Source: Prevotella melaninogenica
GTDB lineage: Bacteria > Bacteroidota > Bacteroidia > Bacteroidales > Bacteroidaceae
Length of the DNA stretch: 64,000 nucleotides
Assembly: GCF_018127925.1 (NCBI RefSeq)
Contig: NZ_CP072347.1
Location: forward strand, 126,501-190,500
Direction of reading: 5' to 3'
This document shows positions 7,842 through 34,471 of this stretch, one piece after another. The position numbers and the translations under genes were made by a program. Every line of letters starts with the position of its first letter. The first letter of the stretch is position 1. The notes under the pieces were generated by a model. It was not told the origin of the DNA. It ran no database searches and was given only the letters and a program-made list of their open reading frames with translations.

Positions 7842-8110
7842 TGTTTTTTACTTGCAAAATTACACTTCTTTGAGGAACTTTGAACGATGCAAAACATTGA
7901 TAATGAAAGAGAAAACTCCGTTTTAGTTACCACTTTCAGCCGTCCTTTTCCTTTCATCGTTTTTCGAACGATTTGGTAACTGAACTCCCTCCTTTTCGCT
8001 CCCTTTTCTGCCTGTTTCCTATGATGCAACCCTAAGAAGAAACAAGCAATATCCGCTGTATTTCAGTCAGATATGAGTTTTATGCCATTTTCTGCTTTCT
8101 ACTCCCATAC
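7842..8110. other. putative attachment-site end of the integrated element
   Basis: The helicase reading frame entering from the right runs normally to about ASFYAE and then ends after VWE with a stop at 8099, so foreign DNA begins at about 8105-8110. The gap from there to the integrase start has no gene I can support. It contains GCAAAATTACACTTCTTTGA and other A/T-rich segments typical of an att region. The other end of the element lies outside the window, so the core repeat cannot be read. Confidence 0.5.
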
Positions 8111-9289: not shown

Positions 9290-9402
9290 TAGCTATTGAA
9301 TACAAAAAGTTTCTCACATAAACCTAATATATGCTTGTGCTTTATTGTTTATATCGGTATTTTTTTGTAAGTTTGCAAGTCAAAATTTGGCGAGACAATA
9401 CG

Positions 9403-13762: not shown

Positions 13763-13946
13763 ATGGACTCTCTTAATTTCAACTCAGTAGAAAGCATCCC
13801 CGGCATTGAAGCCCGCACCGCTTTCACCGTCAACTCGTCAGCCGTATTCAAGGAGGACGTTGACATCATACCGACCATGCTCAGTGACAAGTTGAGCTAT
13901 ATTCCGTGGGGAGGCAACAACCAAATGCCCTACAATATGATTAAGT
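13763..13946 (+). pseudogene. 5' end of a phage portal-like gene in the topB insert
   Basis: From the ATG at 13763 the frame reads MDSLNFNSVESIPGIEARTA, FTVNSSAVFKEDVDIIPTML and SYIPWGGNNQMPYNMIK before crossing into topB at the 9-bp repeat. The IPWG-xNN-MPYxM pattern is one I associate with N-termini of predicted portal proteins in Bacteroides prophages. That identification rests on memory only. The gene is cut after about 60 codons and cannot be functional here. Confidence 0.45.
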
Positions 13947-14977: not shown

Positions 14978-14997
14978 AGTGCTGAATGGTTTTAAGG

Positions 14998-16407: not shown

Positions 16408-16591
16408 TGCTTGATAATTTTAATGATGAATACTGTTATCAAGCTGCTAAATTATAGGTATATGAAGAGATGAAAAAGTTTTCGGGTAAAGTAGGAAATA
16501 AAAGGAATTTATGGGAAACAATCTATTATGTTTAGTTTATGGTAAAGCCTAAAATATCACTTTATTAGAATATAGTTTCTATAATAAGAAA

Positions 16592-16625
16592 ATTCCCCAA
16601 TTATCACGCTGGATAAGTGGGGAAT
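16592..16625 (-). terminator. rho-independent terminator of the synthase-TetR operon
   Basis: On the minus strand ATTCCCCA (16625-16618) pairs with TGGGGAAT (16599-16592) and is followed by TTTTCTTATTAT. It lies 19 bp after the TetR stop codon. Confidence 0.8.
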
Positions 16626-16643
16626 CTCTTTGAACTGTATGGT

Positions 16644-17342
16644 TTAATCCAAACACTTTTTTATGATTTCATCGCTGATACCGTTTTCTTTCATTCTTTC
16701 AGCAACTACTTTTTTATAATTATTTACTTCATGGTTGTGGAATATCATGTGTCCAAGTTCCTCTAAGGCATTTTCTATACGTTTTCTGCCTTGCTCCGTA
16801 TTCAAGTCAATATCGGCAAACTTTGAACGGTCGCGATGGAGATTGAGATAATATATGCCACCTATAATCAATGCCGATATGGCTGATATGTCAATATCTT
16901 TAAATTTCTCTTCATAGGAATTGGCAAGAGGTAATGTGTGCATTTCCCTGAGCATAGCTGTACGAACCGTGGTCTGATTTCCTTCTGCTATTTCCCAACG
17001 CAGTAATTCCAACATTACGGATTTGTCCTGAAGTGCCTTATGTACATCCTTGAAAATACTGATATAGCCCAATTCTGAATCAGTAGGAAATGGAATATCA
17101 GTCAGGACATCCTTAAACCAATAGTCGTATCTCTTAACGAATTCATCATAAAACTCACTAAGATTATCATATCTGTTATAAAAGACAAGCGGTTCGATTC
17201 TGGCTTTCTTGATAAGTTCTGTTACCAACATTGATGCAAAGCCTTTTTTCTTGATCAGACTTTCTGCTGCCTTGATAATGTCAGCCTGTATATCGACATT
17301 TGTCCTTCTGTATCTTTTGGGTTTATTTTCTTCTTCTGCCAT
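16644..17342 (-). CDS. TetR/AcrR family regulator
   Basis: The 232-residue protein has the N-terminal TetR HTH: ADIIKAAESLIKKKGFASML, then VTELIKKARIEPLVFYNRYD, where the tyrosine-rich turn is typical. A helical ligand-binding domain follows. The ATG directly follows the TAG of the upstream oxoamine synthase, so the two genes are translationally linked. A GCTACA-AA-TGTAGC palindrome overlapping the operon promoter at 18603-18616 is a candidate operator. An inducer cannot be named; a product of the synthase would be a natural candidate. Confidence 0.87.
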   Translation of the reverse strand: MAEEENKPKRYRRTNVDIQADIIKAAESLIKKKGFASMLVTELIKKARIEPLVFYNRYDNLSEFYDEFVKRYDYWFKDVLTDIPFPTDSELGYISIFKDVHKALQDKSVMLELLRWEIAEGNQTTVRTAMLREMHTLPLANSYEEKFKDIDISAISALIIGGIYYLNLHRDRSKFADIDLNTEQGRKRIENALEELGHMIFHNHEVNNYKKVVAERMKENGISDEIIKKCLD

Positions 17343-18575
17343 CTAAAAAGGTGTTGATTTTCTAATTTCCACAAGGGCGGTCACCAATTGCTCCAACTGT
17401 ACTATTTCGTGTGAAGCCAACACACTGACTCTAAGCCGTGCTTCCTTGGTTCTTACCGCAGGATATGTGATACCGCTTACAAAGATACATCTTTTTTGTA
17501 ATTCACGTGCTATTTCATATACTTTTCTATTGTCCCTGACCATAATAGGGAATATTGCTGATACCGAACAGCCTATATCAAAGCCTTCCTCTGTCAGTCG
17601 TTTGCGCAGATAATTGACATTGGTCCACAATTTCTTGCGAATTTCAGGACGTGTCTGTATAAGTTCCAGTGCCTTCAGTGTAGATGCTGCAACCTGTGGA
17701 GTCATTGCTGCGGAAAAGACATTACTGTCAGCATAATATCTCAGATACTGAATCAGTTTTTCTGACGCGGCAACAAAACCACCGACACATCCGAAGGATT
17801 TACTGAAAGTTCCTGTAATAATATCTACTTGTCCCAAGCAATTATAATATTCGGCTGTTCCTCTGCCATTTTCTCCCATAACTCCAATACCATGGGCATC
17901 ATCCATCATAAGAAGACAATCGTGTTTCTTGCAGACTGTGATATATTCTGGGAGTTTTGACAAATCTCCATTTTGGGAATAGACCCCATCAATGATGACC
18001 AATCGAGTCTGATATTTTCCTGTTTCCCGTTCAAGAATCATGTCAAGATAGTCAATGTCATTGTGTCCTATATGTTTTACATTGGTTCCAATTAAACCAC
18101 TCGTGGCACTGGTATGGATATACGAATCAATGTAGGCTATGTCATTTTTTCCCAATATGGCACGAAGTAAACCTGCATTAGCGCCAAAGCCAGATGAAAA
18201 AAGGATGGCATCTTCTTGTCCTACAAACTTCGCTATGTCTTCCTCCAATTGTTTATGAATATCTAGATAGCCTCCTATGGCTTGTGCGGCACTTGCCCCT
18301 GTGCCATATTTCAGGACGGCATTTATGCCAGCTTCTTTAGTTTCTGATCTTTGCGACATACCAAGGTAATCATTGGAAATGTATGCGGAAACTTCACCAT
18401 CATAGCCCTCTATCTGCATCTTGGCTCCTACTCCCGTTCTTGCCATGACCCAATAACTCTTGCAGCCGAACTGCTCCATTTGGTCTATGTAGCTTTGGAA
18501 ATTTTGGCTCCGTTCGATTACATTCTCATTTGGAGTAATCTCGAAATCTTTTAATGAAATAATTTTTTTATTCAT
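17343..18575 (-). CDS. PLP-dependent alpha-oxoamine synthase (AONS/KBL/SPT/CqsA-like)
   Basis: A 410-residue class II aminotransferase-fold enzyme. The PLP lysine is in TGTFSKSFGCVGG (about Lys259), the PLP-binding Asp in MMDDAHGIGVMG, and the YGTGASAAQAIGGYLDIHKQ glycine-rich region marks the alpha-oxoamine synthase family. These enzymes condense an amino acid with an acyl thioester and release CO2. Members make biotin precursor, sphingoid bases, 2-amino-3-ketobutyrate or CqsA-type signal molecules. No biotin or sphingolipid genes are nearby, whereas a TetR gene is fused to the operon and a peptide cluster starts divergently. A signalling or specialised metabolite is therefore plausible but unproven. 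Confidence 0.85.
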   Translation of the reverse strand: MNKKIISLKDFEITPNENVIERSQNFQSYIDQMEQFGCKSYWVMARTGVGAKMQIEGYDGEVSAYISNDYLGMSQRSETKEAGINAVLKYGTGASAAQAIGGYLDIHKQLEEDIAKFVGQEDAILFSSGFGANAGLLRAILGKNDIAYIDSYIHTSATSGLIGTNVKHIGHNDIDYLDMILERETGKYQTRLVIIDGVYSQNGDLSKLPEYITVCKKHDCLLMMDDAHGIGVMGENGRGTAEYYNCLGQVDIITGTFSKSFGCVGGFVAASEKLIQYLRYYADSNVFSAAMTPQVAASTLKALELIQTRPEIRKKLWTNVNYLRKRLTEEGFDIGCSVSAIFPIMVRDNRKVYEIARELQKRCIFVSGITYPAVRTKEARLRVSVLASHEIVQLEQLVTALVEIRKSTPF

Positions 18576-18602
18576 ATAAACAATGTGTAGATAGTAAATA
18601 TA

Positions 18603-18616
18603 GCTACAAATGTAGC
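18603..18616 (-). promoter_or_regulatory. operator-like palindrome overlapping the synthase-TetR promoter
   Basis: GCTACA (18603-18608) and TGTAGC (18611-18616) form a perfect inverted repeat with a 2-bp centre. On the minus strand TACATTTG inside it (18614-18607) matches the TAnnTTTG -7 element, about 30 bp before the synthase start at 18575. A repressor bound there would block that promoter, which fits autoregulation by the TetR protein. Confidence 0.5.
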
Positions 18617-18657
18617 GAAAATATTGAGAAGTTGAAAATTTTTTGAAAAAAACCTTG

Positions 18658-18850
18658 TTTTTCTTGTTATAAACAATATAGATTTGTATATTTGCATCGT
18701 TAAGATTATAATTAGTATAATTATAGAACAGACCTTACTGTACAAAGGGAAGCAATGCCAGAAGCTATAAGAAGGCTAATCTAAACCGAACTGAAATAAT
18801 TAAAGAAGCGGTAACTGAAAAGCTACACGAGTAGGTGAAAATAAAATAAC
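18658..18850 (+). promoter_or_regulatory. promoter and conserved leader of the peptide cluster (copy 1)
   Basis: TTTTCTTGTTATAAACAATA at 18658 runs into TATATTTG (-7 type, 18687-18694). Downstream blocks AGTATAATTAT, CAGACCTTACTGTACAAAGG and GCGGTAACTGAAAAGCTACA CGAGTAGG (18809-18835) are all repeated, in the same order, upstream of the gene at 31386. Copy 1 has about 50 extra bases between the second and third blocks. Conservation of untranslated sequence through the whole leader suggests an RNA structure or binding site and not only a shared promoter. Confidence 0.65.
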
Positions 18851-18855
18851 AAAAG

Positions 18856-19023
18856 ATGAATAAAGAAATTATAGAAAATTTGCGACTTTCAGAGTTGGAA
18901 GAAGTAAAGGGAGGTCAAGCATATAGAGATTATCATTGCAGCAGTGGTGCAGAAAAAGTCGTAATAATTGAGGTTCCTACTGAAGATGGTTCAGAAGATT
19001 CTGATGGTGCCATTTACAGCTAA
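18856..19023 (+). CDS. double-glycine leader peptide, candidate RiPP/bacteriocin precursor 1
   Basis: The 55-residue ORF is MNKEIIENLRLSELEEVKGG then QAYRDYHCSSGAEKVVIIEV and an acidic, Ser/Gly tail. LSxLEEVKGG is the classical double-glycine leader cleaved by C39 peptidases, giving a core starting at QAYRDYHC. It lies 5 to 30 nt after the conserved leader and upstream of a broken C39 peptidase gene and, 8 kb further, an intact C39 ABC exporter. The core has one Cys and a highly acidic end, unlike precursor 2. It could be exported, or be a remnant of an older cluster. Confidence 0.7.
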   Translation: MNKEIIENLRLSELEEVKGGQAYRDYHCSSGAEKVVIIEVPTEDGSEDSDGAIYS

Positions 19024-19026
19024 ACA

Positions 19027-19140
19027 ATGAGCGAAGGGAGAATTAATGCTTTATTAAAAATCTACTTTAGACTTGATGCTCCAATAACAAAGAACAAAGT
19101 CATGCCATTACTTGAAATGCAGTTTTGGCATGAGTTTTAA
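19027..19140 (+). CDS. possible 37-residue small ORF after precursor 1
   Basis: The frame MSEGRINALLKIYFRLDAPI TKNKVM... begins 3 bp after the precursor stop codon and has no recognised motif. The closeness suggests translational coupling, but no homologue comes to mind and the following DNA is degraded. Low confidence. Confidence 0.25.
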   Translation: MSEGRINALLKIYFRLDAPITKNKVMPLLEMQFWHEF

Positions 19141-19696
19141 CCCCAACCATCATAAAGTGCAATTTCTGATAGTGCTCATTTCAATTTTGGCATAGATTAT
19201 TAATTACCTAATTTTATACGAAATGCAATATGTTATTTTAAATAGAGCGTACTCGGTGAGAAATGAGGCAACCTGCTCATACATCGTAAGAAAGAATATG
19301 TTTGTTAATTCTGAGTAATTATCAGACAATATATACAATTCCTCCATTTCTTGGATATATCATAACCAATATTGGGAAAAGAGTTATGAACAATCTATTG
19401 TTGAAATAGGAAAAGACCTCAACATTAATGTCGCAACATTAAAAAGTTTCATGTCTCAAATTGTAGAGCAATCGAGTAAATCTATAACTTTTATGGGGGG
19501 AATATTAGTTTTCCCTGAACAGTTATTAATATTTTCAAATCAAAAAGATGATACTCTATATTTTATGTAACAGACTTCTCTCCGAAGAATCCTTATGTGT
19601 AATGTTGGCTACAAACACCATTGGAAATAAATTTTATGGTAACAGAGAAAAGCAACACAAATCGCATCTACATCCGCAGCAAGTTCAAGGGAACAG
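19141..19696 (+). other. degenerate stretch with a broken reading frame
   Basis: No intact gene is visible. One frame is protein-like from 19319 to the stop at 19568 (pieces SISWIYHNQYWEKSYEQSIV and EQSSKSITFMGGILVFPEQL) but has no start codon. A short MFVNSE frame from 19298 ends in a TAA just before it. This looks like a pseudogene of unknown family. From 19636 another short frame (MVTEKSNTNRIYIRSKFKG) leads toward the C39 fragment. The region is probably the remains of a former peptide gene cluster. Confidence 0.4.
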
Positions 19697-19705
19697 GTGC
19701 TGGTA

Positions 19706-19927
19706 ATGAGGAGAAAATACGATTACAATGAGGCGATTACCTTTTTTAGACAATCAGATTCTATGATGTGTGGTACCACTTGCTTACAGATGATATGTAA
19801 ATATTACGGTAAGAACTTTAGCCAAGCTTTCTTGTCTAGCATATGTTATGCAACTACAGAAGGTATTTCTATGTTGGGAATAAAAGAAGCTGCTGAGAAA
19901 TTTGGCATTAAAACTATAGGACTTTAA
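19706..19927 (+). pseudogene. truncated C39 peptidase (exporter N-terminus)
   Basis: The product reads FFRQSDSMMCGTTCLQMICK, YYGKNFSQAFLSSICYATTE and ISMLGIKEAAEKFGIKTIGL and then stops. This is the Cys-containing half of the C39 double-glycine peptidase domain and closely resembles the first 65 residues of the intact exporter at 26910. The His and Asp of the catalytic triad and the whole transporter are missing. It is best explained as the remainder of a second exporter gene. Confidence 0.8.
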
Positions 19928-20082
19928 TGGAAACATAAGAATACTTCTTTCGCCTATAGGTAATAAGAATATAACGTAAAGTGTGATGTTTGATAGCGAT
20001 GGAGCAAGTAGTAAGGAAATAAAAGAGGGTGTTTCAAAATAGACTAAAGATATAAATGTAAAATTATAAGGAAATTATCAAA

Positions 20083-22392
20083 ATGGTACAAAAAATGAGG
20101 CATATTTTTATGATGATCCTGTTTCTGATGTTTTCCAAAGGAGTATACTCTCAAGTGAGTGTAAGAGGAAACATTATTGATGAAAACGACAAGGAAGTAA
20201 TTGGATGTTCAGTCAGAATTCTGTCGACAGATTCGACATTCTTGTCTGGCGGCGTAACCAATGATGTGGGTGAATTTCATATTAAAAATATTCAATCGAA
20301 TAACTTTATCGTTCATCTGTCATATATAGGCTATGAAGACCAATATATTACCTGTAATAATGCATCGGATGATGTTGATATGGGAAAGATTAAACTGATG
20401 GTATTGCCAAAGACTTTAGGAGAGGTAAAAGTTGTTGGTAGTAATAAAATTCAGAAAATTGACAGACAGATACTTATTCCTAGTAGTCTGCAACGGAAGG
20501 CATCCAGTAATGGACTTTTGTTACTGCAGAATTTAAGTCTTCCACGCATTGAGATTAATTCTATTAACAATAGTATAGAGATGACTACAGGAGGGACAGT
20601 TGAATTACAAATTAATGGAGTAAAGGCAAAGCTTCCTGAGGTGAAATCTCTAAGACCAGACGATATAGCAAAGGTGGAATACCATGATAATCCGGGATTG
20701 CGTTATGGAAATGTGGGAGCTGTCATTAATATTATTCTGAAACGGAGGAACTCAGGTGGAAATTTCTCAGTCGATTTAACCAATGGCATAAATAAAGTTG
20801 GAACAGGAGATTATAATGTTTCCGCTAATTATCATTTTGGAAGTTCGTCTTTCAAGTTTATATCTAATTGGGAACGCAGAGATTTGAAATGGATACGTGA
20901 AAATGTTGAAACCTTTAATGGAACTGCAACTCCACTATACAATGTGGAAACAGGCTTGCCTACAAAGGTAAAGTATGACAGGATGAATTTCCTATTAGGT
21001 TATGACTATAATAAAAATAACCATCTACTCAGTATTAACTATAGACAGTCATATATGGATATGCCTTATTCCATATCAGACAGAGAATCCGAACTTACAA
21101 GTGCTGGACAGGAATATAAAATATCCGATCATGAAAAGTCGAGGGAAAATATACCTTCATTAGATATTTATTACCAGACAGAATTGGCTAAAGGAAAGAA
21201 TCTGTTTATTGACGTGGTAGGAACCTATATAAAAACTAAGAATAATAGGCATTTTGTTCAGAGAGGAGTAAATTCTGTTGAGGAATATGCATCACAGACA
21301 AAAGGTGATAAATATTCGCTCATCGCTGAGGCTATTTATGAGCAAAAGATTAAAAATTCCATGTTATCACTTGGCATAAAACATAATCAGGCCTTCGTTT
21401 CCAATAATTATGGTGGAACCATCAATGCGAATATAAGCATGCGAACAGCTGAGACCTATGGGTATGTGGAATTTATGTCTAAGGTAGGGAAATTGGTATA
21501 CACCATGGGTAGTGGTGTAATGAGAACATATAACAGTCAGGGAGATGTAAGCCAGAGTAAAATTATTTTTCGGCCAACACTTAAATTATCATACAATCTG
21601 ACCAAGAATTTACTTGTTAGATACACTGGCTATATTTCAGGTTATTCTCCATCATTATCAGATATGAATGATGTGAGTCAGAATATAGATAATTATCAAG
21701 TTAGACGAGGAAATCCTAATCTTAAGACAGTAAAATTCGTTTCTAATGATTTGACTATCAACTGGAAGTACAAATGGTTGGATTTGGATTATCTTATCAG
21801 ATACAGCTTTGATGATAAGCCATTAATGGAAACGACATTGTTCGAGAATAATAAGTATATACGTACAATGGAAAATCAGAGGGGTTTTCATCGATTGCAG
21901 AATAATTTAAATCTGAAGCTGACTCCGTTCGGTGAAAATCTTCAGGTTAATATCAGCACATACTTGAACAGATACATAAGTGAGGGAAATAATTATACCC
22001 ACACCTATTCTGATTTTGGTGTAAATGGTTCTGTTACCTTTTTGAAAGGGAATTGGTTCCTGATGGCCAGTGCCAGCAAAGGGCATAAAATACTATGGGG
22101 AGAGACTTTAACCAAGGAGGAGACTCTACATTCAATATCTATCGGCTATAATAAGGATAACTGGGGCATACAAGCTCAGGTGTTGAATCCTTTCAGTAGC
22201 AAGTATAGTCAGTATGTAGAGAACTGGTCGAAGCTAGCTCCTTACAGGCAGGATGCTTTTTCGCATGACCTGAACAGAATATTCATGCTTGAAGCATATA
22301 TCAACGTAGACTTCGGTAAACACAAGAACAATGTAAACAAACGAATAAATAATAGTGATACCAATTCTGGCATTTTGTCAGGAAGCAAATAG
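20083..22392 (+). CDS. TonB-dependent-receptor-like outer membrane beta-barrel protein
   Basis: The 769-residue protein has a signal peptide (MRHIFMMILFLMFSKGVYSQ). Next comes a carboxypeptidase-like regulatory (CarbopepD_reg-2) domain (VRGNIIDENDKEVIGCSVRI), then a plug-like region (ITTGG-type segment MTTGGTVELQINGVKAKLPE, YGNVGAVINIILKRRNSGGN) and a long alternating barrel of the OMP_b-brl_3 kind. It lacks a clear TonB box. In this setting it could be an outer-membrane exit or uptake partner for the modified peptide, or a self-receptor. It starts a block of AT-rich plus-strand genes but is 110 bp from precursor 2, so it may be transcribed separately. Confidence 0.83.
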   Translation: MVQKMRHIFMMILFLMFSKGVYSQVSVRGNIIDENDKEVIGCSVRILSTDSTFLSGGVTNDVGEFHIKNIQSNNFIVHLSYIGYEDQYITCNNASDDVDMGKIKLMVLPKTLGEVKVVGSNKIQKIDRQILIPSSLQRKASSNGLLLLQNLSLPRIEINSINNSIEMTTGGTVELQINGVKAKLPEVKSLRPDDIAKVEYHDNPGLRYGNVGAVINIILKRRNSGGNFSVDLTNGINKVGTGDYNVSANYHFGSSSFKFISNWERRDLKWIRENVETFNGTATPLYNVETGLPTKVKYDRMNFLLGYDYNKNNHLLSINYRQSYMDMPYSISDRESELTSAGQEYKISDHEKSRENIPSLDIYYQTELAKGKNLFIDVVGTYIKTKNNRHFVQRGVNSVEEYASQTKGDKYSLIAEAIYEQKIKNSMLSLGIKHNQAFVSNNYGGTINANISMRTAETYGYVEFMSKVGKLVYTMGSGVMRTYNSQGDVSQSKIIFRPTLKLSYNLTKNLLVRYTGYISGYSPSLSDMNDVSQNIDNYQVRRGNPNLKTVKFVSNDLTINWKYKWLDLDYLIRYSFDDKPLMETTLFENNKYIRTMENQRGFHRLQNNLNLKLTPFGENLQVNISTYLNRYISEGNNYTHTYSDFGVNGSVTFLKGNWFLMASASKGHKILWGETLTKEETLHSISIGYNKDNWGIQAQVLNPFSSKYSQYVENWSKLAPYRQDAFSHDLNRIFMLEAYINVDFGKHKNNVNKRINNSDTNSGILSGSK

Positions 22393-22504
22393 AAGGTATA
22401 GCTATGATTGATTAGATATTTAATTTATGCGCATTTTAAATATAAAAATAGAGGTAGCTGAAAATCTATAAAAGAGTAAGCATACAACTTTAATCCTTAA
22501 AAAA

Positions 22505-22663
22505 ATGGAAAAGAAAATTTTAAAATCAATGGAAAGTATTCCAATGATGTCTGAGAGTGATTTTGACTGTCTTATTCTAAACGATGACCAAGCAGATGAG
22601 ATTTATGGCGGAAAAGGAAAATGGATATGTGGAGGAGTTTATAATAACTGTGTAAATTGTTAG
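22505..22663 (+). CDS. candidate radical-SAM RiPP precursor with double-glycine leader
   Basis: The 52-residue ORF reads MEKKILKSMESIPMMSESDF, DCLILNDDQADEIYGG, then the core KGKWICGGVYNNCVNC. The leader is acidic with a double-Gly end at residues 35-36, the site expected for the C39 exporter downstream. The 16-residue core holds three Cys, Trp, Tyr and three Asn, all plausible modification targets. A radical SAM/SPASM enzyme begins 79 bp downstream after an inverted repeat. The position, leader and partners make a precursor role likely; the final chemistry is unknown. Confidence 0.8.
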   Translation: MEKKILKSMESIPMMSESDFDCLILNDDQADEIYGGKGKWICGGVYNNCVNC

Positions 22664-22680
22664 AATAACTAAATTCACAA

Positions 22681-22722
22681 TTTGAGGGTGCTGGCTTACT
22701 TCATAAACTCAGTACCCTCAAA
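22681..22722 (+). promoter_or_regulatory. inverted repeat between precursor and maturase, possible attenuator
   Basis: TTTGAGGGT (22681-22689) pairs perfectly with ACCCTCAAA (22714-22722). The loop is 24 nt and no long U tract follows, only AATAAATTAAAATATTTTAT. Such a hairpin could reduce read-through, giving more precursor than enzyme, or protect the short precursor mRNA. Confidence 0.6.
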
Positions 22723-22741
22723 TAAATTAAAATATTTTATT

Positions 22742-24100
22742 ATGAAGAATCTAACCAAGCTTAAACTTTCGAAATATGCATTTATGTCTGCTCCTCGCAA
22801 TGATGTTTATCTTATTTTCTCTGGAAGATCTGGTAAAAATATTAGATTATCCTGTAAGTCATTTGATGCAATTAAACATAATAGGTTAGATATAATATCC
22901 GACGATACTCTCTACTTATTAAGGAATGTAAAGGTCCTTGTACCAGAGAATGAAGATGAATTTGCGGAAATTAATAAAGAAAATCATGAGAAATTAAGAA
23001 GGCAGGCAAATTTTAGAAAAGAAAATCTTTATTTATCTATTCAGCCATCAGCTTCTTGTCAATTAGCATGTGATTATTGTGGGCAAGAGCACAAAAAGGC
23101 TAAAATCTCAGCTGACAACATCCATCTAGTTCTTAACAGAATTAGGATGAAATTGAAAACGCATACATATAAATTATTGGAGATAGGTTGGTTTGGTGGA
23201 GAGCCATTGACCGCATGGACAGAAATGCGCCATATAAACCGCAATATAAAAGATCTGACTTCAAGTGAAGATATTCGTTATATAAGTCATATAACTACAA
23301 ATGGATATGCCCTAACTTTGCACAAATACATTTCATTGAAAAATGAATTTAATTGTAAGCGAATTGAAATAACTTTAGATGGCAGTAAAGAATTTCACGA
23401 TATCCATCGTTTTACAATTAATCATAGTGGGTCTTTTGATAGAATTTTTTCCAATCTAATTAATATTATAAATAGTCCTGATTACGATAAAGATCAATGT
23501 TTTATATCTGTAAGATGTAATGTGGATGAGAAAAATATTGAAGGTGTTATTCCTCTTCTAAAATCCCTTTATGATCATAACGCTCAAGATAAGATATTTT
23601 TTTATGTCGCGAATGTTGTCTCTTGGGCTAAGAATGGTGCTGGAGTAGAAAATACTTGGAAAAAGATAGGTGAGAAATCAACTGAATATCTTTTGTATAT
23701 GTTGGACCATGGTTTTAAAACAGAGATTTTGCCAGAAAGAGAAGGTCCATACATGTGTCTCGGGACAATAAGAGATTCAGAAATGTATGATGCATATGGA
23801 AATATCTTTGATTGTTCTGAAACATCATATTCTTCTACCTATTCCAAAGGACCTTTCGCATTAGGAAATCTAAGAAATCAGAAAAATTTGAAATATAATA
23901 GCATTCTCAAAGATGTTCCTGAGATGCTAATGAATGGTAAGTTTGAAAAATGTCGTGTCTGTAAATTCTATCCACTTTGTGGTGGATTGTGCCCTCTAGC
24001 TTTAGTTGAGAATGAGCCTAGATGTCCATCGTTTATCTATAATATTGAAGATAGAATGCTTATTCAGATGTTGTATAATTATAAGGGGAAAGGAAAGTAA
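22742..24100 (+). CDS. radical SAM/SPASM peptide maturase
   Basis: A 452-residue enzyme with the radical SAM cluster motif SCQLACDYCGQ (Cys106, Cys110, Cys113) followed by the GWFGGEPL motif that contacts SAM. The C-terminal SPASM domain has Cys in YMCLGTIRDSE, NIFDCSE and the dense CRVCKFYPLCGGLCP cluster, which should bind one or two auxiliary 4Fe-4S clusters. Residues 1-90 look like a peptide-recognition (RRE-like) part, but I cannot confirm this. SPASM enzymes act on ribosomal peptides, forming thioether, C-C or epimerised products. The ATG at 22742 is preferred over a TTG at 22682 that lies in the inverted repeat. Its TAA overlaps the next ATG (TAATG). Confidence 0.92.
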   Translation: MKNLTKLKLSKYAFMSAPRNDVYLIFSGRSGKNIRLSCKSFDAIKHNRLDIISDDTLYLLRNVKVLVPENEDEFAEINKENHEKLRRQANFRKENLYLSIQPSASCQLACDYCGQEHKKAKISADNIHLVLNRIRMKLKTHTYKLLEIGWFGGEPLTAWTEMRHINRNIKDLTSSEDIRYISHITTNGYALTLHKYISLKNEFNCKRIEITLDGSKEFHDIHRFTINHSGSFDRIFSNLINIINSPDYDKDQCFISVRCNVDEKNIEGVIPLLKSLYDHNAQDKIFFYVANVVSWAKNGAGVENTWKKIGEKSTEYLLYMLDHGFKTEILPEREGPYMCLGTIRDSEMYDAYGNIFDCSETSYSSTYSKGPFALGNLRNQKNLKYNSILKDVPEMLMNGKFEKCRVCKFYPLCGGLCPLALVENEPRCPSFIYNIEDRMLIQMLYNYKGKGK

Positions 24101-25392
24101 TGAATATTTTACAAACATACTATGATGATCGTATACATGAGCATGGATTAGATATTTCTGGAAGATATTTAAATTCTGTCACAAACTGGTTGTCCATTGC
24201 GTATAGCTGTTTAACACTGAAAAAGAATAATCAAAAATCACCATTGTTTTTTTATGGTGATTCTGATATTGTGCATATACTTCAGGATTTATTCAAATTG
24301 CCATATGATGAATATAATAGTTTTAATAGTCATATCTTAGAGGGTAATAAATATTATTGTCTTCCCAAGATAATAACATATTCTTTACAGAATGCTCCTT
24401 TTATCCATATTGATACTGATATATTTGTAAATAATCCATTTCCTCAATATTGGGATAAGTCGGATTTAATAGCTCAACATCAAGAACATGATTCCACCTT
24501 TTATAAGTTAGTATATGATTATCTTAAAGAAAGTAAAGTTAAATTATTAGATATCCAGAAAGTTTGCATAGATGGAAGCTATATTAACTCTTATAATCTG
24601 GGAATAGTGGGGGGATGTGATATTAATTTCTTTAAAGAGTATATACAATGTATTAAAAAGTTCATGACCATTAATCACAGGAATATGTATTCTGCGGAAC
24701 AAAAATGTCTTTTTAATGTTGTATTTGAACAGTGGATGTTTTATGCTCTGGCAAAATATAGAAATGAACCTGTATCCACATTTTATCATGAAATTGTAAA
24801 AGACTTTGTAATGCCGAATGGCTTTGTCCCTGAAAGGATAGTTAATCAATACCCTATAGATTTTATACATATCATGGAACATAAGAAACATGTGAGATGT
24901 AATAGTTTTGTTGCACGAAATATGCTTTTAGAGTTCCCTGACACGTATGAACGAATTTTAAAAGAGTGTTATAAAAATGGAATAGATGTCCCACAGTTAT
25001 CTGTGCCCAAGAAAGTTACCCAAGATCAATTAAAACAACAAATATTTTTAAATCAAATTAATCAGGATTCATCTTTTTTATTGAATCTAAAATTACAATT
25101 ATCTCCTTATATTCAGTTTTTAGAACTGTCTAACAAGCAAAAAGAGGTCTTAAAAAAGAAAAATGCAGATGGGAGCAAAATTGGTCAATATCTGAATATT
25201 AAAGCTTTTGATGCTTATATGGGGATATACCACAATTATCTTTATTCTAAAAATCTTTCATCAATTCTCTGGAATTTTAAAAGTCCTAGGAATATAGATG
25301 ATATTTTAAGATCTATCCCTGAGAATAGTAAGAAAGCTTTTATATTCTTTATTAAACAAGCTATCTTTGATAATATATTAATTTGCATATGA
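24100..25392 (+). CDS. glycosyltransferase-like protein with DxD motif (first of a pair)
   Basis: The 430-residue protein opens MNILQTYYDD and has FIHIDTDIFVNNPF with Asp-Thr-Asp at 105-107, the metal-binding motif of GT-A glycosyltransferases. Its neighbour is a paralogue with the same spacing (HVDCDWF at 105-107). Other shared landmarks are NWLSIA, the LPK-x-x-TYS segment before the DxD and the GxxGGxDI segment (GIVGGCDINFFKEY). I believe it belongs to a Bacteroidetes DUF family (possibly DUF6734) without known chemistry. It overlaps both neighbours by 1 to 4 bp, so it works with the radical SAM enzyme. Sugar transfer to the peptide is the obvious hypothesis. Confidence 0.65.
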   Translation: MNILQTYYDDRIHEHGLDISGRYLNSVTNWLSIAYSCLTLKKNNQKSPLFFYGDSDIVHILQDLFKLPYDEYNSFNSHILEGNKYYCLPKIITYSLQNAPFIHIDTDIFVNNPFPQYWDKSDLIAQHQEHDSTFYKLVYDYLKESKVKLLDIQKVCIDGSYINSYNLGIVGGCDINFFKEYIQCIKKFMTINHRNMYSAEQKCLFNVVFEQWMFYALAKYRNEPVSTFYHEIVKDFVMPNGFVPERIVNQYPIDFIHIMEHKKHVRCNSFVARNMLLEFPDTYERILKECYKNGIDVPQLSVPKKVTQDQLKQQIFLNQINQDSSFLLNLKLQLSPYIQFLELSNKQKEVLKKKNADGSKIGQYLNIKAFDAYMGIYHNYLYSKNLSSILWNFKSPRNIDDILRSIPENSKKAFIFFIKQAIFDNILICI

Positions 25393-26900
25393 ATATAATT
25401 CAAACATTTTATAGTTATACAGATGGAGACCCTTTATTTGATAACGCAGGTTTTTTAAGTGCTGAATTTAATTGGCTAAGCATTGCTTTAAGTTGCGTTT
25501 TATTGAAACAGCATTTTGGAAAGGTTACATTATATTGCAACCATAAAGTCCGTATATTGGTAGAAGAACTTCATATTCCTTATACTAATATTGTTGAAAT
25601 TCCTGATTTTATGGAAAATTATGAAGGATATAATTTATGGGCTTTACCTAAAGTCTATACATATAGCATGCAGAGAGAACCATTCTTACATGTCGATTGT
25701 GACTGGTTTATGTTTGAAAAATTATCTGATGATTTTTTGTCATCGGATTTATTTGCACAGAATATTGAATATGATGATCAGTTTTATAATCGTAAGTGCA
25801 TAGAGAGATTTATACATGCAGGGGGAGTCGTTCCTCAATGTGTGAATGCAGAATTATCTGCTCCAATTTGTAGGGTCGCTAATGCTGGGATTTTAGGCGG
25901 GAATGATATTGATTTTATAAAGAGATATGTTAATCAAGTTTATTCTTTTATAAAGAAAAATGATAGAGTTCTAAAAGTAACGAAAGATGGATTTATAAAT
26001 TCTTTTTATGAGCAAATGTTTTTTTATACTATGGCGAGGGAGGAAAATAAATCAGTAAACTATTGTACTAGGGGAGATAAGCTTAGTACTAAGTTTGATT
26101 GGCTTGATATTGATTTTACATGTAAACCAAAATACGGGTATATGCATTTACTCGCTTCTTTAAAACGATCTATTAATGCTCAGATTTTTGTTTCTCAATA
26201 CCTTAGAAATATAGCTCCAGATTTATACAAAAATATTATACAAACGTATATTAATCGAGGAGGTCACACTATTATTAACTATTTTGATATATGCTGTGAT
26301 TTGTGTATAAACAATCTTAGAACAAACGATTTAATATTTTCAGAAACGAAAAAGTATTTAAAGATATATACTCCTATATCAAAAGAAGGTTTAGATTCCT
26401 ATATTACTAAATCTAATTATAAGGAAGATAATTTGTTATCAAAGATTTTCTGTATAGATTTAATGAGGTATAATGCAGAAAAAAACTTAGTAAAGAATTA
26501 TCAAGAAATTTGTAGTGTAAATGATAAAAACATCACATTTTTTTGGAAGGAGGATCTTTTAAAGAAAAATAAGTTGAAATTAAATAATCAATTTTCATTC
26601 ATTGAACTTTCTCAAGATATCTATAAATATCTTTTTCCAAATTACCATTTTCCATCTAGGAATCCTATCATGGCTTTCTTGAAGGATCCATTAATTTTAA
26701 AAGTAAAAGATGTTTTGTTAAGGGGAATTGGTGCGGAAATAATTAGATATATGTGGACTGTATCCGAAGCAACTGCCCCTCAAATTATAAACCACATACA
26801 ATTAGAACTAAAAGATGATGATGTGAGAAGTGACTCAGAGTTGATAATGAAGTATATTATTTCATTTATTACGAACAATGTGTTGCTGTGTGATGAATAA
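25389..26900 (+). CDS. glycosyltransferase-like protein with DxD motif (second of a pair)
   Basis: About 503 residues, starting MNIIQTFYSYTDGDPLFDNA at the ATG that overlaps the previous stop as ATGA. The N-terminal 300 residues match the first paralogue (FNWLSIALSCVLL, LPKVYTYSMQREPFLHVDCD, AGILGGNDIDFIKRYVNQVY). The C-terminal 200 residues are extra and unlike it: a Lys-rich alpha-helical region with no motif I know. The first paralogue also has its own C-terminal extension of about 130 residues. Two enzymes with one precursor might add two sugars, or one might be a substrate-binding partner. Confidence 0.62.
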   Translation: MNIIQTFYSYTDGDPLFDNAGFLSAEFNWLSIALSCVLLKQHFGKVTLYCNHKVRILVEELHIPYTNIVEIPDFMENYEGYNLWALPKVYTYSMQREPFLHVDCDWFMFEKLSDDFLSSDLFAQNIEYDDQFYNRKCIERFIHAGGVVPQCVNAELSAPICRVANAGILGGNDIDFIKRYVNQVYSFIKKNDRVLKVTKDGFINSFYEQMFFYTMAREENKSVNYCTRGDKLSTKFDWLDIDFTCKPKYGYMHLLASLKRSINAQIFVSQYLRNIAPDLYKNIIQTYINRGGHTIINYFDICCDLCINNLRTNDLIFSETKKYLKIYTPISKEGLDSYITKSNYKEDNLLSKIFCIDLMRYNAEKNLVKNYQEICSVNDKNITFFWKEDLLKKNKLKLNNQFSFIELSQDIYKYLFPNYHFPSRNPIMAFLKDPLILKVKDVLLRGIGAEIIRYMWTVSEATAPQIINHIQLELKDDDVRSDSELIMKYIISFITNNVLLCDE

Positions 26901-26909
26901 TCTCTGAAA

Positions 26910-29105
26910 ATGAATAAGAATTTCATTATTTGTAAACAATATGATTCAATGCAATGTGGGATTGCATGTTTGGCTATGATATGCAAATATTATGGCAAGA
27001 AATATTCAATGGATTGTCTTAACCAGTTATGTTTTGCAACTACAGAAGGTGTCTCTCTATTGAGTATTACTAGGGCTGCAGAGACACTTGGATTTAAGAC
27101 TGTTGGAGCTAGGTGTGAGGTAAGTAATCTGGTTAATAAGAATCTCCCCTGCATCCTCCACTGGAATCAGAACCATTTTGTAGTGCTGTATAAATTGAAG
27201 AAAGGCAAGACATTCTATATTGCTGACCCAGGAAAAGGACTCATTAGGTATAAGCTTGAGGAGTTTAAGGAGCACTGGATTAGTACAAAGCAGGACGGAG
27301 CGGAGAAAGGAGTAGCTGTGTTCCTATATCCGACGGAAAAATTCTATAAGCGAAAAGACATAGACAGGAGGGAGGAACACCTGTTTAAGTTCCTCTTTGG
27401 TTACATCAAAAAGTACAAAAAATACTTTGGGCAGATCGTACTGGGCTTATTTGTAGGTTGCCTTCTGCAGCTTATCCTCCCTTTCCTCACGCAGTCAATC
27501 GTGGATGTGGGCATTAAAAACCAGAACATCGGTTTTATATGGCTGATACTCTTAGGGCAACTGATGCTTACCGTGAGCCGTACTGCCATCGACTTTATTC
27601 GCCGTTGGCTGCTGTTGCATATTTCGCTGCGCATAAACATCTCATTGGTAAGCGACTTTTTCATCAAACTTTTGAAGCTGCCAATGTCGTTCTTCGATAC
27701 AAAATTGATGGGTGACCTCATGCAACGCATGGGCGACCACAGTAGGGTGAACACGTTTCTGACGCAACAGACGCTCAGTATCGTATTCTCACTCTTCACC
27801 TTTGTGGTGTTCAGCATCGTACTGCTATTCTATAATTGGCTCGTCTTTGCCATCTTCATGCTTGGCAGTCTGCTTTATGGCGGTTGGCTTGCACTCTTCC
27901 TCAGGCGCAGAAAGGTACTCGACTACGAACTCTTTGAGCAACAAGCTATCAACAACAATAAAACCTACGAGTTTATCACCTCCATGCAGGAAATAAAGCT
28001 CCAAGACTGCGAGCAGCGCAGACGCTGGGAATGGGAAGACGTGCAGGCAGACCTCTTTGGAGTGCAGATGAAATCGCTGAAACTCCAGCAGACACAGGAG
28101 GCTGGCAGCATCTTCATCAACGAACTAAAGAACATTGTCATCACGGTAGTGGCAGCAACAGCCGTCATTCATGGACAACTCACGCTGGGTATGATGCTTG
28201 CCGTGCAGTACATCATAGGACAACTTAACTCGCCCGTGGAACAGTTGATGAGTTTCTTCTACTCCGTACAAGATGTAAAGATAAGCCTTGAACGTATCAA
28301 CGAAATCCACCGTATGGACGATGAGAACGGAAAGCAAGGATTGGAAACCTCTGTGAAAGAAGAGGATAAGGGCATAGACCTTGAAAACGTAAACTTCAAA
28401 TACGACCCACACGCACTGAAGATCATCATTGATGATGTGAGCCTCACTATCCCCAAAGGTAAGGTAACTGCCATTGTGGGCGCATCGGGAAGCGGTAAGA
28501 CCACCCTCATCAAACTGATGTTAGGCTATTATCCTGTATTGGAAGGACAAATCACCATTGGCGGAACAGATGTGAACACACTCAATAAGAAATGGTGGCG
28601 CAGACAATGTGGTGTGGTGATGCAAGACGGTGTCATCTTCTCTGAATCCATTGCACGCAACATTGCCGTTGATGATGGAGAGATTGACAAGGAGCGGTTG
28701 CAAAGGGCAGCCGAAATAGCTTGTATTCATAACTATGTAATGGGACTTCCCTTAAAATACAACACTAAGATTGGTCGCGATGGCGTTGGTTTGAGCCAAG
28801 GACAGAAACAGCGTATCTTGATAGCAAGAGCCGTGTACAAGAACCCCGATTATATTTTCCTTGATGAAGCCACCAACTCGCTCGATGCCAATAACGAGCG
28901 CATGATTGTGGAGCATCTGGATGAGTTCTACAAAGGCAAGACCGTGGTTATCGTGGCTCACCGATTAAGTACGGTGAAGAATGCTGATCAAATAGTGGTA
29001 TTGGATAAAGGCAAGGTGGTAGAAATTGGCAACCACGAAGCACTCACGGCAAAGCAGGGTGCATACTATAACCTTGTAAAGAATCAATTGGAATTGGGCA
29101 ACTAA
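26910..29105 (+). CDS. C39-peptidase-containing ABC exporter (bacteriocin type)
   Basis: A 731-residue fusion. The N-terminal C39 peptidase has Gln15-Cys16 in DSMQCGIACLAMICKYYGKK, His90 in NQNHFVVLY and Asp107 in YIADPGKG. It should cut after the double-Gly of the precursors. Next is a six-helix transmembrane domain (residues about 160-440) and then an ATPase with Walker A GASGSGKTT (about 523-531), signature LSQGQKQR (about 627) and Walker B YIFLDEATNSLD. It resembles PCAT transporters. GC content rises after about 27100 compared with the genes before it, so the 3' part may have another history. It sits 9 bp after the glycosyltransferase-like gene and 17 bp before a HlyD-like gene. Confidence 0.95.
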   Translation: MNKNFIICKQYDSMQCGIACLAMICKYYGKKYSMDCLNQLCFATTEGVSLLSITRAAETLGFKTVGARCEVSNLVNKNLPCILHWNQNHFVVLYKLKKGKTFYIADPGKGLIRYKLEEFKEHWISTKQDGAEKGVAVFLYPTEKFYKRKDIDRREEHLFKFLFGYIKKYKKYFGQIVLGLFVGCLLQLILPFLTQSIVDVGIKNQNIGFIWLILLGQLMLTVSRTAIDFIRRWLLLHISLRINISLVSDFFIKLLKLPMSFFDTKLMGDLMQRMGDHSRVNTFLTQQTLSIVFSLFTFVVFSIVLLFYNWLVFAIFMLGSLLYGGWLALFLRRRKVLDYELFEQQAINNNKTYEFITSMQEIKLQDCEQRRRWEWEDVQADLFGVQMKSLKLQQTQEAGSIFINELKNIVITVVAATAVIHGQLTLGMMLAVQYIIGQLNSPVEQLMSFFYSVQDVKISLERINEIHRMDDENGKQGLETSVKEEDKGIDLENVNFKYDPHALKIIIDDVSLTIPKGKVTAIVGASGSGKTTLIKLMLGYYPVLEGQITIGGTDVNTLNKKWWRRQCGVVMQDGVIFSESIARNIAVDDGEIDKERLQRAAEIACIHNYVMGLPLKYNTKIGRDGVGLSQGQKQRILIARAVYKNPDYIFLDEATNSLDANNERMIVEHLDEFYKGKTVVIVAHRLSTVKNADQIVVLDKGKVVEIGNHEALTAKQGAYYNLVKNQLELGN

Positions 29106-29122
29106 CAGCAGAAAGGAATATT

Positions 29123-29602
29123 ATGTCAGACAACAAGATAGAACTCCGTAGCGAGAAAGTAAGGCATATCATTGGCGAGATACCATCAAGGATTGTCCGT
29201 TATGGTATCACGATTATCACCATTGTGATGTTGGGACTACTGATAGGCGCATATTTTATACCTTATCCCGAAACCATCAGTGCAAAGGTGCAGATGACAA
29301 ATGCCTATCAAGGCGCAATAACCATTCCATATAAATATGTGAATACGATAGCAAGAGGAATGACGGCAAACATTGAGTTTGAGGGTTACGATGCAGAAAC
29401 ATACGGAGTTGCAAATGCTGTAATAACAGCCACATCGCATATACCCTTACAAACGGAAGCTGGTAGTGTATTCACGGCACAGGTAAGGATAACGGATTAC
29501 AAGTATAATCTTGTAAGCGGGATGACAGGCACGGTATCTATACTTGAAAGTAATGAAAGCGTACTTCAAAGGATTGTCAAGAGAATAACAAATATCATAT
29601 GA
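29123..29602 (+). CDS. very short HlyD-like membrane fusion protein
   Basis: The 159 residues start with a cytoplasmic tail, one transmembrane helix (YGITIITIVMLGLLIGAYFI) and the PYPETISAKVQM beta-strand of HlyD-family adaptors. They then jump directly to the C-terminal beta-barrel and macroglobulin-like part (YVNTIARGMTANIEFEGYDA, VRITDYKYNLVSGMTGTVSI). The long coiled-coil hairpin and lipoyl halves, normally about 250 residues, are absent. Both junction halves are in frame, so either the gene suffered a clean internal deletion or this is a natural mini-adaptor. It completes the peptide export operon. Confidence 0.8.
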   Translation: MSDNKIELRSEKVRHIIGEIPSRIVRYGITIITIVMLGLLIGAYFIPYPETISAKVQMTNAYQGAITIPYKYVNTIARGMTANIEFEGYDAETYGVANAVITATSHIPLQTEAGSVFTAQVRITDYKYNLVSGMTGTVSILESNESVLQRIVKRITNII

Positions 29603-29640
29603 TTTCCTTTTTAATCGTAATAAAACAGTGAAAGAGAGGA

Positions 29641-29775
29641 ATGTCCAGATTGAGTGTTAAATTTTTATGTCCATATTGCAGTTCAACGGAAATGATTAAA
29701 AGTGGGAAGAATAGCAATGATAAACAATACTGCCAATGCAAACATTACTCCAGATATTTTAGGTTCTTCCGTTAA
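29641..29775 (+). pseudogene. IS1-type InsA zinc-ribbon remnant
   Basis: The 44-codon frame reads LSVKFLCPYCSSTEMIKSGK, then QYCQCKHYSRYFRFFR before a stop. The CPYC-CQC zinc ribbon is the N-terminus of IS1-family transposase A. Nothing else of the IS is visible. The following stretch 29776-30250 contains no gene I can support; frames there are short and antisense. Confidence 0.6.
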
Positions 29776-30253
29776 ATGAGTGGATGCTTTTCGCATAGCT
29801 TTAACGGAAAAACCGAGTTTATTCATTAAACAAAAATACAGTCAAGACTGTCAATGTCTATTCTATTATCACCCTCCAACACCGCACCCTTTTTCATTTT
29901 AACACTTCAAAATGTAGATAAGGGTCTGAAAAATCATTACATAATTCAGATTAAAACATCTATAAATAAAGATAAAAACACGTATAAAAAGTAAGTTTAC
30001 AACTAACAGAAAATCAATTAGTTATAAAGTTGTGTAAGAAAAGGTGCTTAGTTGGACTTCAAAAGGGTGTTAGTACCACTCCAAAAGAGCATCTTTTGGC
30101 TTGCAATTAGGTGTCTTTTAGAAGCCAAAAGAGCATGTATTGCAAACGCTACCGAAACCGCAAGGGCAGGCTCTCGGAAAGTGAGATTATGACCATTTTG
30201 GTATGCTATCATTTCGGCGCATATCGCAATTTCAAGGAGTATTATTTGAATTG

Positions 30254-30630
30254 GGTCAAAGGGGTGATGCATCAAGCAGGAACTCTTTGAGAGCCTATTC
30301 GGTCAATGTATCCAACTCGTTCATGGGCTCAAGGCTAAGATGAAGAATAAACTGATGGCTATGTGGGACAAAATCATGCTGAGGAAAAGAAACATTATCG
30401 AGTGCATTAACGAACTACTCAAGAACAAAGCCAACCTTGTTCACTCAAGACACCGCTCGATACACAACTTTATCATGAACTTGTGTTCTGCCCTTACAGC
30501 ATACTGCTTCTCTGAGAACAAGCCAGAGGCACTGCCAGTGTATGTGGGAAATCAAGGCAGTTGGAACTTTTATCATGCTAAACTTATCCCGAATTCACGT
30601 AACAATAGACAAACCTTTTACAGTGAATAA
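30254..30630 (+). pseudogene. IS982-family transposase, C-terminal remnant with right end
   Basis: The plus-strand frame KQELFESLFGQCIQLVHGLK, then MKNKLMAMWDKIMLRKRNII and HSRHRSIHNFIMNLCSALTA is the C-terminal region of IS982-family transposases (LRKR-x-x-IE-x-IN and HSRHRS are diagnostic). The N-terminal two thirds are gone. TTATCCCGAATTCACGT near 30590 is the likely right terminal repeat, complementary to the ACGCGAGTTCGGGATAA end of another fragment at 57740. The last codons run past the IS end. Confidence 0.75.
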
Positions 30631-30675
30631 AGGGTCTATAATAGATATCTCAATAAAAAATAGATAGTAAAAAAC

Positions 30676-31014
30676 TATTCTTTAATTAGATGTGCCAATG
30701 CAGAATCAGCCTTGATGCGCTTGACCTCTGCATTCACAAGCGACAATATTTCTTTTTCTCCTTACGATAATTGGCTTCAATAGTTTCTTTGAGATTATCG
30801 GAGCCATCTTTGTTTTGAAGTCTGCGATTGTGGATATAGACTGATAAACTTTCATTTCAGCGGAAACTTTAGCAATATCCACGACAATATCGGCATGGAA
30901 AATCTTTTGGTCAATACGTTCATCGAAATTATCGGATACTACACCTTCAAACATACCCTGACCCGTTGGCGGAATTAAGGCCGAATTTACCAAGTCTTTT
31001 GAAAAGAATTGCAT
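30676..31014 (-). pseudogene. duplicate 3' fragment of the coupling protein gene (traG/mobC)
   Basis: The product GQGMFEGVVSDNFDERIDQK, KVSAEMKVYQSISTIADF matches the C-terminal part of the coupling protein at 36614-38620. A 1-bp loss after ADF and a second shift further on break the frame, and only with both corrected does it read on as NLKETIEANYRKEKEI...LIKE to about 30676. The copy is as far diverged as a different element's gene. It marks the junction of two cargo blocks. Confidence 0.8.
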
Positions 31015-31236
31015 ATATTAAGTATTTTTGCGAAATCCGCATATAAGTTGTGCATACGGATTATTAAACTTAGCGTGTTGCTTATTACTAAGTTACAAAA
31101 CCTCTTTTATATGCAACTTTTCTTGCATATTAATTTATCCTTTAATTTAATTCCGCCAACGAGTTATATATAGTTAATAATATAGCAAATATAGTGAAAA
31201 TACTAAGGAAATACAAATTTTTGAAAATAAAATAAC

Positions 31237-31368
31237 TATTTTCTTGTTATAAACAATATCTATTTGTATATTTGCGACAAGAAAAGGAAAATGTCATTTT
31301 AGTATAATTATCTATCAGACCATACTGTAAAAAGGAGCGGAAGCCGAAAAGCTTACGAGTAGGCCCTA
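31237..31368 (+). promoter_or_regulatory. promoter and conserved leader of the lipase/pseudo-astacin operon (copy 2)
   Basis: TTTTCTTGTTATAAACAATA (31239) leads to TATATTTG (31268-31275), followed by AGTATAATTAT, CAGACCATACTGTAAAAAGG and GCGGAAGCCGAAAAGCTTAC GAGTAGG (31337-31363). These are the same blocks in the same order as at 18658-18850, though the genes downstream are unrelated. The start codon at 31386 follows after a short AT-rich spacer. 31015-31236 has no gene. Confidence 0.65.
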
Positions 31369-31385
31369 ACTTACCTTAATTAGAT

Positions 31386-34460: not shown

Positions 34461-34471
34461 AGAATAGAATT

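Follow-up and report, generated by a model that had tools for sequence, protein, structure and literature searches.

A candidate peptide-tailoring operon with paired DUF6734 proteins occupies an exchangeable cassette in Prevotella melaninogenica

In this study, we describe an operon for a ribosomally synthesized and post-translationally modified peptide (RiPP) in a stretch of 64,000 nucleotides from Prevotella melaninogenica (contig NZ_CP072347.1, positions 126,501 to 190,500 of the forward strand), hereafter called the window. Seen through its genes alone, the operon is supported as a type of RiPP biosynthesis with a conserved precursor. Our reading, to which we assign a probability of roughly 0.6, is that it forms an exchangeable cassette of a conjugative element, in which a radical S-adenosylmethionine (SAM) maturase would cross-link the peptide, a pair of DUF6734 proteins would glycosylate it and a C39 route would export it. 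The operon comprises the following seven genes.

20083-22392, forward strand: outer-membrane beta-barrel protein with a CarboxypepD_reg domain, TonB-receptor-like (OMP_b-brl_3, E 6.4e-13)
22505-22663, forward strand: RiPP precursor of 52 residues with a double-Gly leader and core KGKWICGGVYNNCVNC, identified by motif and conservation
22742-24100, forward strand: radical SAM/SPASM-type maturase, identified by Pfam, NCBIfam, a PDB profile match and alignment (reading frame open from TTG 22682)
24100-25392, forward strand: first DUF6734 protein, predicted GT-A-like with a C-terminal module (PF20508, 176 bits, E 1.5e-51)
25389-26900, forward strand: second DUF6734 protein, predicted GT-A-like with a C-terminal module (PF20508, 232.7 bits, E 7.6e-69)
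26910-29105, forward strand: peptidase-containing ATP-binding cassette (ABC) transporter (PCAT), the exporter, with C39, ABC membrane and ATPase domains
29123-29602, forward strand: short HlyD-like adaptor of 159 residues (TIGR01843, E 7.7e-8, profile positions 316-413 of 422)

A precursor with a Gly-Gly leader thus adjoins a modifying enzyme and a C39 exporter, the arrangement by which a RiPP locus is recognized here. The hallmarks of a lanthipeptide are absent: the core has no Ser or Thr, and Pfam gives no dehydratase or LanC among the operon proteins. Overlaps or gaps below 20 bp from the maturase onward had been described in an initial annotation of this DNA and are borne out by measured values of -1, -4, 9 and 17 bp. 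The gap between precursor and maturase is about 78 bp, because we place the maturase start near ATG 22742, where the alignment of relatives begins, rather than at the TTG that opens the frame. To that earlier description we add the barrel gene, which is part of the same unit as the precursor. The C39 exporter named there was found by Pfam with all three of its domains, while the HlyD likeness of the adaptor applies to the end of the TIGR01843 profile. Adaptors of similar size follow in two related loci (159 residues in L051, 2468-2947; 157 in L203, 5008-5481), and small proteins likewise trail the exporter in L109, L116 and L117.

The precursor is as the initial annotation had it, 52 residues long with a double-Gly leader; the leader takes up 36 of these and ends in ...DQADEIYGG. 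Scanning 505 short open reading frames (ORFs) of the window for a double-Gly motif returned seven matches, and by our own reading genuine leaders are likely only at 18856 and 22505. That the precursor would be conserved beside the maturase in other genomes was also upheld: it lies 5' of the maturase in all six operons in which that DNA is available, the window's included. The whole precursor is visible in five of these operons, as three different sequences, and a fourth core, KFICFGNYNNCSFGNCA, was read by eye from genome G612, whose contig starts at the leader end. All four cores (KGKWICGGVYNNCVNC, AEWGYYGNCSFGNCH, KFVCFGGYNNCSFGNCA and KFICFGNYNNCSFGNCA) carry two Asn-Cys pairs, spaced one or three residues apart.

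Conservation extends to the operon as a whole. Searching 398 same-genus genomes (its own included) with the second DUF6734 protein, we found tandem DUF6734 genes of this type in seven: the window's genome, G397, G423, G612, G616, G648 and G830. Each of the seven has the maturase immediately upstream of the pair and the exporter downstream of it. The G612 contig ends inside the exporter, and the G397 DNA stops just before the maturase; an insertion-type sequence may sit at that point in G397, since its first 125 bases match window positions 59441-59562 at 96%. A protein of similar size takes the barrel's place in L051, L200, L201 and L203, assigned by position and size in L203 and split in L200. 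Identity of the window's proteins to those of L051 and L203, respectively, is 47 and 21% for the barrel, 52 and 42% for the precursor, 56 and 53% for the maturase, 39 and 39% for the first DUF6734 protein, 44 and 41% for the second, 86 and 79% for the exporter, and 86 and 37% for the adaptor. The exporter is thus strongly kept in both loci while the biosynthetic parts diverge. The P. lacticifex locus L203 has, beside the operon, another double-Gly peptide that is accompanied by a radical SAM gene of its own (965-2506).

The maturase contains the described CX3CX2C motif (CQLACDYC) and a further SPASM-type cysteine pattern, CX2CX5CX3C...C, and matches the Pfam Radical_SAM family (E 1.3e-9). The SPASM assignment of the initial annotation stands in part: a Pfam search up to E 1 returns no SPASM domain, so the label is drawn from the cysteine pattern and the NCBIfam neighbours. 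The closest of these is TIGR04463, at 169 bits against a membership cut-off of 525, and the maturase scores far under the cut-offs of the 25 NCBIfam families shown. Those neighbours include maturases with Cys-rich targets and thioether-forming maturases, and also cyclophane-forming ones. The nearest solved relative is PDB 5wgg (E 5.1e-7 over about 150 residues); the consulted portion of PMC10352776 calls it CteB, a ranthipeptide maturase, and states that CteB-type enzymes join Cys and Thr via thioethers. Like the ranthipeptide and sactipeptide systems (CteB, PapB-type), the window has a radical SAM enzyme with SPASM-type cysteines, a Cys-rich core and a leader; it differs from them by the two DUF6734 enzymes that follow the maturase. 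Relatives of the maturase also occur on plasmids (50 records, all below 60% identity), and those in the R. etli and Methylomagnum plasmids lie beside precursors unlike the window's.

The two proteins with an Asp-x-Asp motif both belong to the Pfam family DUF6734 (PF20508), to which Pfam assigns no function, and score far above its gathering cut-off of 27 bits. The placement of the motif at residues 105-107 holds for the first protein; in the second it falls at 103/105, or at 105/107 if TTG 25383 is used, and the most likely start of that protein is ATG 25389. No mention of DUF6734 or PF20508 was found in a search limited to open-licence literature. A scan of a genome collection gave 250 confirmed DUF6734 stretches, from which the best 80 were taken and joined with 22 others into 102 pooled loci. 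Across 117 domains from these loci (118 less one short domain, identical loci kept), the His and both Asp of H-x-D-x-D never vary, nor do two Gly, a His further along and two Lys; an E-Q pair is nearly as constant (Glu in 114 and Gln in 115 of the 117). The Asn of N-x-G is kept in 111 and the Gly of H-x-x-G-x-x-K in 100. Both window proteins have these key residues intact.

These motifs suggest that DUF6734 proteins may be GT-A-like enzymes with a GT8 architecture. DUF6734 and GT8/LgtC share one motif order, namely DxD, N-x-G, (E/D)-Q, H-x-x-G-x-x-K: the GT8 structures 1g9r (LgtC) and 3tzt contain, in turn, LDxD, N-x-G, D-Q, and a His with the Lys of a KPW six residues behind it. In LgtC these residues bind metal and nucleotide. 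In profile comparisons with hhalign, DUF6734 matched a GT8 profile built from 22 of 25 listed phylum loci (L167, L168 and L225 left out) at E 0.025; among 24 decoy families the best reached 0.12. A smaller GT8 profile of nine sequences gave E 0.074, and a Caps_synth profile of four sequences, from four of six loci, gave a decoy-like E of 0.5. With columns of more than 50% gaps removed, the GT8 match scored 25.36 (E 0.011) over 165 columns, a score reached once in 200 column shuffles and never in 200 block shuffles.

Several results weigh against glycosyltransfer and against thioether cross-linking. The HH probability of the GT8 match is 1.9%, under usual significance; global alignment of DUF6734 with GT8 yields no match (E 0.87); and a reversed DUF6734 profile scores 24.4 against 25.4, over 22 columns instead of 165. 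An hmmsearch of PDB with DUF6734 returned two irrelevant matches (best E 0.071) and no glycosyltransferase, and a loose-threshold Pfam search with 17 family members likewise returned no glycosyltransferase and no GT8. The Asn-Cys pattern has been seen in four cores that are all related. The maturase resembles cyclophane-forming families too, such as DynA (69 bits) and YhhB (54 bits). DynA forms cyclophanes, and the resemblance makes a bond from an aromatic to another side chain possible. PF01501 (GT8) itself has no match in the window's genome.

One alternative, which we regard as unlikely, is that the cluster makes a RiPP but that its DUF6734 proteins are not glycosyltransferases, and instead transfer another nucleotide-activated group or provide a modifying scaffold together with LanC-like proteins. 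The failure of plain Pfam and PDB searches to link DUF6734 with glycosyltransferases fits this explanation, as do the neighbours of the shorter family members, among which LanC-like genes (11 of 35 non-redundant loci) and genes resembling nonribosomal peptide synthetases (NRPS; 9 of 35) recur. The invariant HxDxD and HxxGxxK-type residues in their GT8 order speak for glycosyltransfer instead, and so does a long protein in L072 (433-2397) in which, by eye, DUF6734 continues into an apparent GT2 glycosyltransferase domain. In L206 (1468-3531), DUF6734 likewise lies within one long protein.

Gene neighbourhoods tie the family to peptides more widely than the window alone would indicate. Of 395 genomes sampled from the phylum, 16 contain DUF6734, as do 7 of 149 relatives (the window's own counted in each); none of 14 control genomes does, and a search of viral contigs with the first DUF6734 protein found nothing. 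Among the 102 pooled loci, 45 have a double-Gly peptide within 3 kb of DUF6734 on its own strand and 1 has such a peptide on the other strand; farther than 5 kb away, the counts are 7 and 2. These counts are approximate, since the double-Gly motif is our own rule, which misses L057 and L058 and matches falsely in L054 and L132. Thinning the loci to 78 with less than 70% identity left 35 with a same-strand peptide within 3 kb against 1 on the opposite strand. The 43 long forms (at least 400 residues) account for 28 against 1 of these, with a C39 exporter within 5 kb in 23, and the 35 short forms for 7 against 0, with an exporter in 6; both peptide and exporter are missing from 8 long and 27 short loci. 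Binning instead by extension beyond the domain, which misplaces L051 as short, gave 25 of 39 and 10 of 39 and the same conclusion. In these counts the PCAT, HlyD, VKOR and LanC labels denote similarity clusters (VKOR and LanC representatives confirmed by Pfam; the HlyD label leaves out the window's short adaptor), and the NRPS, ABC, GT2 and injection-system labels follow our reading of the sequences.

Our own radical SAM profile, which may miss distant members, picked up a gene of this kind in 9 of the 102 loci. Besides the window's gene order, these are Prevotella, Bacteroides, Bacteroidales and Azobacteroides records and one from Lachnospiraceae. The neighbour counts therefore link long DUF6734 proteins to double-Gly peptides in general and make the radical SAM combination one branch. 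DUF6734 would seem to be a broad family of peptide-tailoring proteins, in most cases with no radical SAM partner detected. In this respect, the earlier view of the locus as a new radical SAM RiPP system was sound as to the conserved operon and the GT-A-like motif order and too narrow as to the family. A branch of short DUF6734 proteins from one genus (L066-L070), with tandem pairs in three of five loci, adjoins genes that by eye resemble those of contractile injection systems, and no double-Gly peptide was found in these loci.

The long forms carry a C-terminal part that appears elsewhere in other company. This part matches the C-terminal part of LanC-like proteins encoded after short DUF6734 genes (E 8e-7; decoys outside the LanC group 0.22 or worse), and it also matches ten separate proteins of 180-255 residues whose genes immediately follow those of short DUF6734 proteins (E 6.5e-7). 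Those free proteins in turn match the LanC part at E 1.4e-7, the best of 23 decoys reaching 0.09; the comparisons with free partners used earlier length bins. The module thus occurs fused to DUF6734, fused to a LanC-like protein or alone (L120 10885-12906; L059 8759-9301), as might be expected of a part that binds the leader or a partner. The LanC-like protein of L120 seems by eye to be missing the usual zinc ligands. The two proteins of the window's group fit less well: their C-terminal regions match the module weakly (E 0.007 and 0.046) and not at all when taken singly, and do not match each other (E 0.31), results that count against a leader-binding role here. Against the LanC part they reach E 0.0005 and 0.013, with five decoy pairings at 0.19-0.47. 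Because the window group matches only weakly, we infer, rather than observe, the module in the window's proteins.

Where a sugar might be attached is constrained by the core, which has three Cys and neither Ser nor Thr. We rejected Ser and Thr as acceptors in the window for this reason; any sugar on this core would have to sit on Cys, Asn, Tyr, Trp or Lys. RiPPs with glycosylated Cys, Ser, Thr, Tyr and Trp have been reported (the part of PMC10373908 consulted). The main rival to Asn-linked sugars with cross-linked Cys is S-glycosylation, as in glycocins: the DUF6734 pair would attach sugars to Cys, there would be no cross-link, and the radical SAM enzyme would act otherwise, for example in epimerization. 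We consider this unlikely. In its favour are the three Cys of the Ser- and Thr-free core and the precedent of the S-glycosyltransferases SunS and ThuS, whose GT-A fold is unusual and whose target is Cys (in the consulted part of PMC10373908). The maturase points the other way, its nearest families being peptide cross-linking or directed at Cys-rich targets, and Cys-free cores also occur near DUF6734. Five of the 47 cores counted there have no Cys. The L071 core is clipped by its locus, the full form in L210 having Cys, and L132 is a doubtful precursor that reads as a helix-turn-helix protein, which leaves L119, L130 and L139. Given these three, Cys as the only acceptor across the family is doubtful, and Cys may not be the sole acceptor.

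Under the reading of cross-linking followed by glycosylation, the maturase, and probably the DUF6734 proteins through their C-terminal modules, would recognize the 36-residue leader. One or two bonds, most likely Cys thioethers, would be made by the maturase in the Cys-rich core, and the two DUF6734 proteins, as GT-A-type enzymes, would each add one sugar at a distinct site, transfer of two sugars being one option only. The sites may be the two Asn-Cys pairs, the Cys serving for cross-links and the neighbouring Asn for sugars. The C39 domain would then cleave after Gly-Gly, and the ABC exporter, the short adaptor and the outer-membrane barrel would carry the product out. We advance more tentatively the wider proposal that DUF6734 proteins are phylum-wide peptide glycosyltransferases with an exchangeable leader- or partner-binding module; here two of these enzymes would modify two Asn-Cys sites of a radical SAM-cross-linked peptide that has no Ser or Thr acceptor, and the product would represent a hybrid class of cross-linked glycopeptides.

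The operon sits in a slot whose contents have been exchanged. Four further features, listed below, mark this slot and its left part.

18590-18748, forward strand: promoter-like repeat TAnnTTTG of about 150 bp at the left cassette edge, identified by sequence comparison
18696-30741, no strand assigned: cassette region exchanged in P. histicola L145 (flank identity 92% and 98%)
18856-19023, forward strand: second double-Gly leader ORF of 55 residues, a separate precursor or a remnant (weak lant_leader_L1a match, E 0.0096, below cut-off)
19643-19924, forward strand: N-terminal fragment of a C39 exporter, a probable cassette remnant (57-59% identity to relatives' exporters)

Window positions 13941-18695 and 30742-35067 are 92% and 98% identical to P. 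histicola JCM 15637 (L145), in which the 12.0 kb between these flanks is replaced by 11.6 kb. The P. histicola insert encodes another double-Gly peptide, a VKOR-type protein, a 929-residue protein in the barrel's position, one DUF6734 protein and a C39 exporter. Integrases, a relaxase, and TraG-type and TraM genes surround the cassette in the window and mark it as part of a conjugative element in which the peptide slot can be exchanged. Copies of the repeat, whose TAnnTTTG corresponds to a promoter consensus, stand at the left edge, at 31170-31345 and at two more places in the P. histicola element. The same promoter-like repeat precedes a gene at 31386-34460 for a 1024-residue protein with a serine-esterase/LCAT-like domain. 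Elsewhere in the window (8099-10677), a helicase-like gene on the reverse strand lies beside a C5 cytosine DNA methylase gene on the forward strand; the two may belong to a restriction or defence system carried by the element.

The span that the initial annotation gave to the system additionally holds the second double-Gly ORF and the exporter fragment. That ORF, just 3' of the promoter-like repeat, has a leader ending in LSELEEVKGG and a 35-residue tail, and no relative of it was found among the fetched loci. The fragment is probably left over from a cassette. Such debris just upstream, together with the split barrel and exporter genes (two ORFs each) of the relative G830 (L200; 3372-5671 and 10405-12605), would also suit a decayed or silent RiPP island that perhaps yields no product in this strain. 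We judge this improbable, as all seven operon genes of the window are full-length and open and tightly spaced from the maturase onward, and both DUF6734 proteins retain their key residues.

Glycocins are exported via C39, as is proposed for the window's peptide. Glycocin systems (SunS, ThuS, PalS) also direct a GT-A-type enzyme to a small Cys peptide, an activity that we propose likewise here (PMC10373908, as far as consulted); the window differs in its radical SAM maturase, its core free of Ser and Thr, and the lack of a link between DUF6734 and glycosyltransferases in plain searches. The Bacteroidales clusters BGC1-9 share with the window a PCAT and double-Gly precursor, an outer-membrane protein and a radical SAM enzyme, and glycosyltransferases are reported in two of the nine, BGC3 and BGC9; the consulted part of that source (PMC10352776) does not name DUF6734 and describes no pair of DxD proteins. 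Pfam already places both window proteins in DUF6734, and the link of this family to double-Gly peptides is first drawn here.

Altogether, if our reading is correct, it would give a function to DUF6734, a family found in those 16 phylum genomes and 250 collection stretches. It would also open up a set of peptides that genome mining may overlook, in bacteria presumably of gut, oral and marine habitats, to judge from the record names. The exchange between the two Prevotella species shows a mobile element trading one peptide pathway for another in a single slot.

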